A stretch of 64,000 nt of DNA from Gemmatimonadaceae bacterium (GTDB lineage: Bacteria > Gemmatimonadota > Gemmatimonadetes > Gemmatimonadales > Gemmatimonadaceae): NCBI GenBank assembly GCA_011525845.1, contig WYBP01000011.1, positions 124,001 to 188,000 of the forward strand, in the 5' to 3' direction. Below, piece by piece: positions 44,366-49,495 of the stretch. The first letter of the stretch is position 1. Every line of letters starts with the position of its first letter. The notes under the pieces are model-generated. The model ran no database searches, was not told where the DNA came from, and saw nothing but the letters and a program-made list of their open reading frames with translations. The position numbers were made by a program, and so were the translations under genes.

Positions 44366-45472
44366 TCAGGCCCCCACGTTGAGGACGAGGCGCAGCCGCG
44401 TCTGGATCGTGATCTGCGACGTGGGCGTGACGATCACCGAGTTGCCGGCGCCCGTGCCGTTCACCGTGCCGCGGACGCGCACGGTCACTCCCGACTTGCC
44501 GAGCAGCGACCGCAACTCCGACTGCGAGAGCGCGATGGAGGTGCTGGAGGTGGGCTGCGCGGGGATCGAGAGGGGCTTGCTGACCGTCACCGCCGGTCCG
44601 CCGCCCTGCGCGGGCGCGCTGAACTCGACGTTGAGGTTCGCCGTCGCGGTGAACGGGTTCACGACGTCGAGCTCGACACCCCCCGATTCCACCTGGTCGC
44701 CGAGGTCCACGTCACTCAGGCTGAAGGTGGTCGGGTTCGTCGTCACGGAGTCGTTGCTCACCACCACCGTGGCCTGCGAGGCGGCGAAGCCCTGCAGGCT
44801 CGATGTGAGCGCGAAGGAGTTGTTCCGGTTCAGGTTCGCGTTGCCGCCCGCCGGGACCACGAGCGTGATCGCGACCGAGATTGAGGAGGCGTAGACGCCG
44901 GTCGGGAGGACGGCCGAGAGCGTGGTGGTCGCGCCGTTCGGGAGACCGACGGTCGACGAACCACGGATGGTGTCGGTGCGCGCCACGGTCCCGCTCGAGA
45001 TGCTGAAGATGATCTGGCCGAAGGGCGCCGTCGCGGTGCCGTTCGGGCGGAGCGGGTCGAAGCCGAGGTTGTTCACGATCACGACGTTGAGCGTGCCCCC
45101 GGTGACGGTCACCGAGTTCACGTCGGCCGGCAGGTTGACGGTGCTGCCGAGCAGGCCCGCCGGCGACGTGAACGCAGGCGTCGGCGCGTTCACCGTCGCG
45201 GCGGACTGGCAGGCGGGCTGGGCACAGATCGCGCCGAGCGTGGTGTTCACCACGGTGGCCGACGTGTTCACGGCGAAGGAGGCGGGCGGTCCCGCGGTGA
45301 CCGTCACTCCCGTGGGGAGGAAGCTCGAGGCGCGCACGCTGACCGAATCGGTCGGGACGACCCAGGTCTGCTGCAGGATCGGCGCCTCCGACGGGATGTC
45401 GCACGCGGCGACGCCCAACAGGGCACCAAGGATGGCGACGGCGCCGAGGCGCCGCGCGGGAAGTCGGGTCAT
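44366..45472 (-). CDS. Lipoprotein of unknown function, beta-rich, low-complexity
   Basis: A 368-residue protein. ATG 45472 opens a lipoprotein signal (RLGAVAILGALLGVAAC), so Cys24 is the likely lipidation site. The mature part is unusually rich in Thr, Val, Ser, Asn and Ala with beta-sandwich-like repeats (GSTVNLPADVNSVTVTGG, FSISSGTVARTDTIRG, SSISVAITLVVPAGG). No catalytic motif is evident. The long frame start at 45511 is rejected because it lacks a signal pattern. Cotranscribed with the downstream barrel gene (3-bp gap). A CRP/FNR-like site and a -10-like box lie upstream. Possibly a surface-exposed partner of the barrel. Confidence 0.72.
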   Translation of the reverse strand: MTRLPARRLGAVAILGALLGVAACDIPSEAPILQQTWVVPTDSVSVRASSFLPTGVTVTAGPPASFAVNTSATVVNTTLGAICAQPACQSAATVNAPTPAFTSPAGLLGSTVNLPADVNSVTVTGGTLNVVIVNNLGFDPLRPNGTATAPFGQIIFSISSGTVARTDTIRGSSTVGLPNGATTTLSAVLPTGVYASSISVAITLVVPAGGNANLNRNNSFALTSSLQGFAASQATVVVSNDSVTTNPTTFSLSDVDLGDQVESGGVELDVVNPFTATANLNVEFSAPAQGGGPAVTVSKPLSIPAQPTSSTSIALSQSELRSLLGKSGVTVRVRGTVNGTGAGNSVIVTPTSQITIQTRLRLVLNVGA

Positions 45473-45540
45473 GATGGGTCCGGGGAGGAGACGTGCGCAG
45501 GAGCGGTGCATCGAAGGAGTATCGGCACCGGGAGCCGGGA

Positions 45541-45639: not shown

Positions 45640-46335
45640 CTACCGCCACACCGAGATCGCGCCGAGCGGCTTGCGGGCGATGTCGGGGACGCGGGCGTGC
45701 GGCGCCGGATAACCCACCGGCATCACCAGCATCGCCTTCTCGTTCGGCGGCCGCTCGAGCAGCTCCGAGAGGAATGCCATCGGGTTCGGCGTGTGCGTGA
45801 GGGTCACCAACCCCATCTGGTGCACCGCGGCGATGAAGAACCCCGCCGCGATGCCGCACGACTCCTGGGTGTAGTAGAAGGTGCGCTTGCTCCCGTCCGC
45901 CTCGAGCCCGTGCGACTGCCGGAAGAGCACCACCACCCAGGGTGCGTCCGTGAGGTGCGGCTTGTGCTCGTCCGTCCCGAGCGGGGCGAGCGCCGCGATC
46001 CAGTCCTCCGGCGCGCGCCCGCTGTAGAACGCCTTCTCCTCCTCCTCGGCCGCGCGCCGGATCTCGGCCTTGAGCGCCGGGTCCGAGACGGCGACGAAGG
46101 TCCAGGGCTGCTGGTGGGCACCACTCGGCGCCGTGCCGGCCGTCCGGATGGCGAGCTCGATCAGCTCCCGGGGCACGGGCTCCGTGGAGAAGTGCCGCGT
46201 CGTCCGACGGCGGTCCATCTCACGGTAGAAGTCCCGAGCGCGCTGCAGCGACTCGGCTGGCGGACGTCGCTCGAAGGCGAGCGGGACGAAGGGGTGCTTG
46301 CCCGTCCGGGGGGGGCCTGAGGTCGGCTCGGTCAT
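45640..46335 (-). CDS. Iodotyrosine deiodinase-like nitroreductase
   Basis: A 231-residue FMN flavoprotein of the nitroreductase fold, closest by pattern to iodotyrosine deiodinase (IYD): RRRTTRHFSTEPVPRELIE, RTAGTAPSGAHQQPWTFVAV, TDAPWVVVLF, KRTFYYTQESCGIAAGF, THTPNP and NEKAMLVMPVGYPAP. The active-site lid residues that clamp the zwitterion of halotyrosine in human IYD (Glu157, Tyr161, Lys182) are matched by Glu100, Tyr104 and Lys125 with identical spacing (4 and 21). It should reductively remove iodide or bromide from halotyrosines; other nitroreductase uses are possible. ATG 46335 excludes an unsupported N-terminal extension. Divergent from the fusion gene at 46481. Confidence 0.88.
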   Translation of the reverse strand: MTEPTSGPPRTGKHPFVPLAFERRPPAESLQRARDFYREMDRRRTTRHFSTEPVPRELIELAIRTAGTAPSGAHQQPWTFVAVSDPALKAEIRRAAEEEEKAFYSGRAPEDWIAALAPLGTDEHKPHLTDAPWVVVLFRQSHGLEADGSKRTFYYTQESCGIAAGFFIAAVHQMGLVTLTHTPNPMAFLSELLERPPNEKAMLVMPVGYPAPHARVPDIARKPLGAISVWR

Positions 46336-46480: not shown

Positions 46481-49400
46481 ATGGCCGACCGCAACTCGCA
46501 TTGGCAGCAGATCGTGCGCGAGGCGTGGGGCCTGGAGGGCGAGCTCACGCCCCTCCCGGGGGAGTTCGACCTGAACTTCCGGCTGCGCGCGTCGGACGGG
46601 CGCCACCTCGTGCTGAAGGTGATGCGGGCGTCCTGCGAGGCCGGTCTCGTGGACCTCCTCTGCGCCGCCCACACCCATGTGCTCGCGCGCGGCGCACACC
46701 CGGTGCCGGCGATCGTGCCGACGCTCAAGGGCGCACAGTGGTGCTCGCGCCCCGACGAGCGCGGCGACGACCGCCTGCTCTGGATGCTCACCGGCCTCGA
46801 CGGCATGGATTACGCGCGTTTCCGGCCGCACACCCTCGCGCTCGCGCGGGAGCTGGGCGGTCGGATCGCGCGCCTGGACGCCGCCCTCGAGGGGTTCGAG
46901 CACCCGCAGCTCGCGCGCGAGCTCAAGTGGGACTTGAGCAGGGCGGAGTGGATCGCGGGGCACCTCACGCGCATCACGGATCCCGGGCGTCGTGCGCTGC
47001 TGGATGCGGTCGTGGCCCGGTACCGCGCCGTCCAGCCGAGGCTCGCCGCCGAGCGCCGCACGCCGATCCACAACGACCTGAACGACCACAACATCCTCGT
47101 CGTGGCCGACGAGCGCGGCACGCCGCGGATCTCCGGGCTCCTCGACTTCGGCGACATCACCACGGGGCCGCTCGTCGCGGAGCTCGCGATCGCCGCGGCG
47201 TACCTGGTGCTCGACCGCGACGATCCCGTGCGCGCGCTCGAGGCCATCGTCTCCGGCTTCCACGAGGTCACGCCCCTCGCCGAGCAGCAGCTCGCGCTGC
47301 TCTGGCCGCTGCTCCGCATGCGGCTCGCCGTGAGCGTCGTGAATTCGGCGCTGATGCGCGCCGAGCGGCCGGATGACGCGTACGTCGTGGTCTCCGAGGC
47401 ACCCGCCTGGCGTTTCCTCGAACACTCGGCGCGCCTCGACGAGCGGGAGGTGGAGGCGCGGCTCCGCGTGGCGTGCGGCATGGGACCCAACCCCGCGGCA
47501 GCGCGGGCGATGCGCTGGATCGCGGGGGCGCGCGGCACCTTCGCGCCCGTGGTCCGCGCGGACCTCTCGAAGGCGCTGGTCGGGTCGCTGGCGGCGCACG
47601 ACTCGGGGGTGCCGCGCGACCCCTTCCATCTCACCGCGGAGGAGGCCGCGGCGATGGGGGGCGAGTTCGGCCCCGAGAGCGCCTGGATCGCGCGCTACGG
47701 GGAGCCCCGTCTCGTGTATTCCGCGCCGGCCTTCCGCCGCACGGAGTACAAGGGCTCCGACCGCCGGAGCGTGCACCTCGGCATCGACCTCTTCCTCCCC
47801 GCCGGGAGCTCCGTGCATGCGCCCTACGATGCGCTGGTGGAGCGGGTGGAGTATCGGGGAGGCCACCTCGACTACGGTGGCATGGTGGTCCTCAAGCACC
47901 TCACGCCGGAGGGCGACTGGTTCTCGACGCTCTACGGCCACCTCTCGCGCGAGACGGTCACGCACCTGGAGCGTGGCCAGCGCGTCGCGCGCGGCGCGCC
48001 CTTCGCCGCACTGGGGACGCCGGAGGAGAACGGGGGCTGGGCGCCGCACCTGCACCTCCAGCTCTTCCTCGACTCCTCCCTCGCCGGCGAGCAGTGGCCG
48101 GGCGTGGCGGAGGCGGACGACCTCGCGTTCTGGTCGGCGCTCTGCCCGAACCCGGCGGCGCTGCTCGACATGCCGGACGAGCGCCTCGCCTACCGGCCGC
48201 TCGACGCCGACGCGATCCGGGACGCGCGCCGCGACCACTTCGCCGCGAACCTGCGCCTGAGCTACGCGGAGCCCTGCCTCTTCGTGCGCGGCTGGCGCAC
48301 GCACCTGTTCGACGAGTGGGGACGCCCGTACCTCGACGCGTACAACAACGTGCCGCACGTGGGGCACGCGCACCCGCGCATCCGGGCGGTGGCGGCGGAC
48401 CAGCTCTCCCGCCTCAACACCAACACCCGCTACCTCCATCCCGCGCAGGTGGAGTTCGCCGAGACGCTGCTGGCCACGCTCCCGTCCGCCTTCACCCACG
48501 TGTTCCTCGTGAACTCCGGGAGCGAGGCGAACGAGCTCGCGCTGCGGCTCGCGCGCGCCCGCACGGGAGCGCGCGACATGGTCGTCGCCGACCACGGGTA
48601 CCACGGGAACACCACCGGCGCGATCGACATCTCGCCGTACAAGTTCAACAAGCCCGGAGGCGGCGGGGCCCCGGACTGGGTGCAGGTGGTGCCGGTGGCG
48701 GACACCTACCGCGGCCCACATCGCGGCGCCGATGCCGCAGCGCGCTACGCGGCGGAGGTGGACGCCGCCATCGCGCGCATCACCGCGAGGGGCGCTCGCG
48801 TCGCGGGGTTCATCGCCGAGACCTTCCCGAGCGTCGCGGGGCAGATCATCCCGCCCGCGGGATACCTGCGCGCCGTGTACGAGCAGGTGCGCGCGGCGGG
48901 GGGCGTCTGCATCGCCGACGAGGTGCAGACGGGCCTCGGACGGCTCGGCCAGCACTACTGGGGGTTCGAGCAGCAGCAGGTCGTGCCGGATGTCGTCGTG
49001 ATCGGCAAGCCGCTCGGGAACGGCCACCCCATCGGTGCCGTCGCGACGACGGCGGAGATCGCCGGCTCCTTCGACAACGGCATCGAGTTCTTCTCGACCT
49101 TCGGCGGGAGCACGCTCTCGTGCCGCGTGGGCACCGAGGTGCTGCGGATCGTGCAGGAGGAGGGACTCCAGGCGCACGCCGCGCAGGTGGGTGCGCACCT
49201 GCTCGCCGGGCTCCGCGAACTGCAGGCGCGCCACGCCACCATCGGCGACGTGCGGGGCATGGGGCTCTTCGTGGGCGTGGACCTCGTGACGGACCCGGAC
49301 TCCCGCGCGCCCGCCACGCGCGCCGCGGACTACGTGAAGAACCGGCTCCGCGCGGCGCGGATCCTCATCGGCACCGAGGGGCCGGCCGACAACGTGCTCA

Positions 49401-49495
49401 AGATCCGCCCGCCCCTCACCGTCGAGCGCGACGACATCGACCACCTGCTCGCCGCCCTCGACCGCGTGCTCGGCGAGACACCCGCGCGCGCCTAG
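46481..49495 (+). CDS. Trifunctional fusion: APH-like kinase, M23 peptidase domain, class III PLP enzyme
   Basis: A 1004-residue cytoplasmic-looking protein (no signal). Residues 1-330 form an APH/choline-kinase-like kinase with His197-Asn-Asp199 (IHNDLNDHNILV) and LLDFGDI. Residues about 420-560 form an M23 peptidase fold with His432-x3-Asp436 (HLGID) and His523-x-His525 (HLHLQ). Residues about 585-1004 form a class III PLP enzyme with Lys843 (VIGKPLGNGHPIG) and ADEVQTGLGRLG. In vertebrates hydroxylysine kinase and 5-phosphohydroxylysine phospholyase (or ethanolamine-phosphate phospholyase) are the separate counterparts of the two ends. Bacterial fusions like this suggest phosphorylate-then-eliminate catabolism of an amino alcohol. 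The M23 domain's role is unclear. Divergent from the deiodinase-like gene. Confidence 0.88.
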   Translation: MADRNSHWQQIVREAWGLEGELTPLPGEFDLNFRLRASDGRHLVLKVMRASCEAGLVDLLCAAHTHVLARGAHPVPAIVPTLKGAQWCSRPDERGDDRLLWMLTGLDGMDYARFRPHTLALARELGGRIARLDAALEGFEHPQLARELKWDLSRAEWIAGHLTRITDPGRRALLDAVVARYRAVQPRLAAERRTPIHNDLNDHNILVVADERGTPRISGLLDFGDITTGPLVAELAIAAAYLVLDRDDPVRALEAIVSGFHEVTPLAEQQLALLWPLLRMRLAVSVVNSALMRAERPDDAYVVVSEAPAWRFLEHSARLDEREVEARLRVACGMGPNPAAARAMRWIAGARGTFAPVVRADLSKALVGSLAAHDSGVPRDPFHLTAEEAAAMGGEFGPESAWIARYGEPRLVYSAPAFRRTEYKGSDRRSVHLGIDLFLPAGSSVHAPYDALVERVEYRGGHLDYGGMVVLKHLTPEGDWFSTLYGHLSRETVTHLERGQRVARGAPFAALGTPEENGGWAPHLHLQLFLDSSLAGEQWPGVAEADDLAFWSALCPNPAALLDMPDERLAYRPLDADAIRDARRDHFAANLRLSYAEPCLFVRGWRTHLFDEWGRPYLDAYNNVPHVGHAHPRIRAVAADQLSRLNTNTRYLHPAQVEFAETLLATLPSAFTHVFLVNSGSEANELALRLARARTGARDMVVADHGYHGNTTGAIDISPYKFNKPGGGGAPDWVQVVPVADTYRGPHRGADAAARYAAEVDAAIARITARGARVAGFIAETFPSVAGQIIPPAGYLRAVYEQVRAAGGVCIADEVQTGLGRLGQHYWGFEQQQVVPDVVVIGKPLGNGHPIGAVATTAEIAGSFDNGIEFFSTFGGSTLSCRVGTEVLRIVQEEGLQAHAAQVGAHLLAGLRELQARHATIGDVRGMGLFVGVDLVTDPDSRAPATRAADYVKNRLRAARILIGTEGPADNVLKIRPPLTVERDDIDHLLAALDRVLGETPARA

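Follow-up and report, generated by a model that had tools for sequence, protein, structure and literature searches.

The window, a 64,000-nucleotide stretch of DNA from a Gemmatimonadaceae genome assembly (3.58 Mb in 25 contigs), carries on its reverse strand an ATG-to-stop frame that translates cleanly into 231 residues and encodes a protein of the iodotyrosine deiodinase (IYD) type (Table 1). The GC contents at the three codon positions (0.69/0.52/0.94) are typical of real genes in a window of 71% GC. The mechanical open reading frame stays open further upstream of position 46335, to a length of 388 amino acids, but the start consistent with the homologues is the ATG at this position. No clear ribosome-binding site was seen at this ATG, and scanning the surroundings of the gene for promoters and terminators gave nothing. 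The gene is the sole PF00881 nitroreductase detected in the host genome. Its divergent neighbor (46481–49495, plus strand) encodes a 1004-residue protein that joins an APH-type phosphotransferase to an M23 peptidase domain and a class-III aminotransferase and matches NCBIfam PRK06148 with 1427 bits, a known architecture that has no functional name. Just downstream on the IYD strand (44366–45511, minus strand) lies a gene for a lipoprotein-like product of 381 residues with no Pfam or NCBIfam match.

Table 1 Features of the IYD gene in the window.
Feature	Position	Strand	Basis
IYD gene, 231 aa, FMN-dependent nitroreductase fold	45640..46335	-	translation, PDB sequence search, profile, tree, model
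Glu100 codon (human IYD Glu157), substrate clamp	46036..46038	-	computed from start 46335; alignment; 63/63 in clade
Tyr104 codon (human IYD Tyr161), substrate clamp	46024..46026	-	alignment; 63/63 in clade
Lys125 codon (human IYD Lys182), substrate clamp	45961..45963	-	alignment; 63/63 in clade
R43-R44-T45-T46-R47, FMN-binding motif (mouse R96 R97 S98 V99 R100)	46195..46209	-	alignment; PMC3930498
P70-S71, FMN contacts (mouse P123 S124)	46123..46128	-	alignment; PMC3930498
Thr182 codon (human Thr239, mouse Thr235), FMN contact	45790..45792	-	alignment; PMC3930498; invariant 63/63
Arg221 codon (human Arg279, mouse Arg275), FMN contact	45673..45675	-	alignment; PMC3930498

The protein matches the Pfam Nitroreductase family PF00881 with 84.5 bits (cut-off 23.5). 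Within the nitroreductase superfamily, Iyd is listed as a subgroup in its own right (PMC6017928). No IYD family model in NCBIfam release 20.0 matched the sequence; the best matches were BluB (TIGR02476, 54.6 bits) and the FbiB C-terminal domain (40.3 bits), which share the FMN-containing nitroreductase-superfamily fold but are weaker fold matches, and both scores fall far under the curated cut-offs of 150 and 249.55 bits, respectively. A general nitroreductase, a flavin reductase or a BluB-like enzyme that merely resembles IYD would account for curated libraries naming only PF00881 and for BluB being the top NCBIfam match. However, in addition to the low BluB score, a profile built from 42 IYD family members scored 322–361 bits on the IYD-type loci of the phylum and no more than 60 bits on its other nitroreductases, which lack the substrate clamp described below, and these results together with the structure ranking make such an identity highly improbable.

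A sequence search of the PDB returned first the IYD of Haliscomenobacter hydrossis (HhIYD, 5KO7, E 3e-75), followed by the human and mouse enzymes (2e-56 to 2e-54) and, after a gap, by a 192-residue IYD (6PZ0, 1e-22); no other nitroreductase does better than 7e-12. In a quick tree of 76 sequences, of which only the main split was used because branch support within the IYDs was mixed and often weak, the protein falls in a clade with HhIYD and human IYD that is separated with an SH-aLRT value of 99 from 13 other nitroreductases, all from Gemmatimonadota. The predicted structure, computed as a monomer, has a mean pLDDT of 91.1 and a pTM of 0.87. Comparison with Foldseek and VIA-align placed iodotyrosine-bound HhIYD first, with an RMSD of 1.0 Å over 217 residues and a Z score of 28.6; human and mouse IYD follow with Z scores of about 28 and 6PZ0 with 23.9. 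Chains of non-IYD nitroreductases score 18.8 or less, such that all listed IYD entries stand above the rest, some 5 Z units apart from them. The assignment could have failed, as had been pointed out, if the protein belonged to a different nitroreductase subgroup; by profile score, tree, PDB sequence search and fold comparison alike the protein stays with the IYDs.

HhIYD is the closest solved relative, with 52–53% identity and a similar length (PDB accession numbers 5KO7, 5KO8 and 5KRD), although it comes from another phylum, Bacteroidota, and the nearest relatives in the tree are other Gemmatimonadaceae. Human and mouse IYD (IYD/DEHAL1; 4TTB/4TTC and 3GFD) share 45% identity with the window protein over 214 alignment columns and correspond to it position for position at the clamp and the FMN contacts. 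Mammalian IYDs carry an N-terminal membrane segment, whereas the window protein begins close to the catalytic domain. The mammalian IYDs and the window protein also differ around Thr239 (TTTP vs THTP), THTP occurring in HhIYD as well. The short IYD 6PZ0, from Thermotoga, has the same fold and enzyme name but only about 30% identity, and lacks the counterpart of the first ~30 residues.

The earlier note had proposed that Glu100, Tyr104 and Lys125 reproduce the human residues Glu157, Tyr161 and Lys182 that clamp the substrate, together with FMN motifs of the IYD type, and both proposals are borne out. The clamp residues align free of gaps with the human ones and also with Glu91, Tyr95 and Lys116 of HhIYD. 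The FMN contacts described for mouse IYD are R96, R97, S98, R100, P123, S124, T235 and R275 (PMC3930498), and all eight have aligned counterparts in R43, R44, T45, R47, P70, S71, T182 and R221. The only substitution among them, Thr45 for human Ser102 (mouse S98), is found identically in HhIYD, which shares the FMN contacts of the window protein, Thr173 among them. Glu, Tyr and Lys occupy the clamp columns in 63/63 sequences of the IYD clade, a sample that was gathered by similarity and by peptide patterns excluding these columns and that favors close relatives of the window protein, vs 0/13 other nitroreductases of the same phylum. Given this count and the separation of the profile scores, the clamp match goes beyond chance. 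Apparent breaks of the clamp in pairwise alignments of four loci (L014, L038, L041 and L063) were local gap misplacements, and multiple alignments restore the clamp.

In the scheme established for IYD, residues of the active-site lid hold the substrate, and the lid shuts above the FMN, whose reduced form strips off the halogen (PMC5499721). By alignment, the window protein has the residues for all three: substrate holding, lid closure and flavin-dependent dehalogenation. It would form a homodimeric FMN protein with the nitroreductase fold, as characterised IYDs do. Glu100, Tyr104 and Lys125 would grip a free 3-halotyrosine (iodo-, bromo- or chloro-) by its zwitterion, and by analogy with the characterised enzymes this grip would close the lid over the flavin. 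Reduced FMN, with Thr182 beside it, would then remove the halogen, one electron at a time, to give halide and tyrosine. We therefore read the gene product as a standalone, soluble bacterial iodotyrosine deiodinase that removes the halogen from free 3-halotyrosine to give tyrosine that can then be degraded, with a probability of about 0.9. The halotyrosine reading put forward in the earlier note is thus strongly supported, as sequence, clade and predicted fold all point to IYD. Its surprise at finding the enzyme in a bacterium without thyroid hormone is unwarranted, because a crystal structure of a bacterial IYD with iodotyrosine already exists (5KO8) and both bacteria and marine archaea widely carry members of the family.

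A contig scan identified at least 563 relatives, 80 of which were retained. These span Gemmatimonadota, Acidobacteriota, Bacteroidota, Chloroflexota, Actinomycetota, Pseudomonadota, Verrucomicrobiota, Planctomycetota, marine group II archaea and others, and the closest named relatives among the matches listed are encoded in metagenome-assembled genomes of Gemmatimonadaceae. Nine loci of marine group II/Poseidoniales archaea (L025, L027, L029, L030, L031, L039, L040, L064 and L078) encode IYDs with 57–63% identity to the window protein, and their neighboring genes are conserved only among themselves. At an E value of 1e-30 or better, 16/59 genomes of the family contain an IYD match, including the window's own genome; two of the matches are broken or partial. 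In one relative (L114, G027:C331:5524-6169) the IYD is spread across two frames whose ends overlap, due to a frameshift in the gene itself or to a mistake in the assembly. Two loci from the genus of the window (L013 and L119) encode a second IYD type, about 58% identical to the first and located in another clade of the tree; the presence of two types in one genus is suggestive of transfer, or of paralogues having been lost differentially. One family member (G054) has two IYD copies, 74% and 64% identical to that of the window.

The gene neighborhood was analysed by clustering the genes up to five positions away from each of 89 IYD loci, a set from which the window's own gene is missing because the simple gene caller preferred a longer overlapping neighbor. 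No IYD neighbor is conserved across phyla in these 89 loci; conservation is confined to close lineages such as marine group II archaea and Streptomyces. The few neighbor clusters that span several phyla are large generic families at varying places (PAS-domain histidine kinases, ABC transporter ATPases and short-chain dehydrogenases), so that the context identifies neither a partner nor a pathway. In this set, IYD is not accompanied by any reductase gene from phylum to phylum, and no gene neighbor hints at halogenated substrates.

The lack of neighbors conserved across phyla and the patchy occurrence of the gene within the family would both fit an enzyme that keeps the IYD active site and could deiodinate in vitro but for which deiodination is incidental, its natural substrate being a different compound with a tyrosine-like zwitterion or phenol, for example another ortho-substituted tyrosine or a halophenol. 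HhIYD has been crystallised with 2-iodophenol bound as well (5KRD), and for the IYD orthologue of C. elegans the substrate is unidentified (PMC3930498). However, the residues that grip the amino acid are invariant in 63 sequences from many phyla, which suggests that selection has steadily favored a free amino acid bearing a phenol. We regard an incidental deiodination as less likely, and dehalogenation of free halotyrosine as the preferred reading.

The gene content of the host genome bears on the fate of the tyrosine released. A gene for 4-hydroxyphenylpyruvate dioxygenase (hpd) scores 455 bits, over the cut-off, and is adjoined by a distantly hmgA-like gene whose HgmA_N domain is above the Pfam cut-off but which reaches only 53/511 bits for TIGR01015, leaving the homogentisate step uncertain. 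Tyrosine may thus be degraded through 4-hydroxyphenylpyruvate and homogentisate, and its use as food is plausible from these two genes. They stand together with a gene containing a flavin-reductase domain (L126:646-3689, contig C18), and this gene, beside the hmgA-like one, is a candidate source of reduced flavin. A search limited to the Trp_halogenase family found no member in the host genome, so the substrate would more likely come from outside.

The window protein is a genuine but ordinary IYD. Its novelty is low, given that a bacterial IYD has been solved with iodotyrosine and that at least 563 relatives exist. A literature search, weak because subscription papers lie mostly outside its coverage, found no paper on the in vivo role of a bacterial IYD. 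Tentatively, the prokaryotic IYDs might share a widespread task that has not been described, such as salvaging or detoxifying the halotyrosines of soil and sea and thereby supplying tyrosine catabolism. With this locus, Gemmatimonadaceae gain a clear representative of a family that is familiar chiefly from the thyroid and that retains its clamp throughout bacteria and marine archaea. Automated annotation would probably label the product a nitroreductase family protein, as no NCBIfam model names it; the clamp together with the IYD profile would name such genes correctly.
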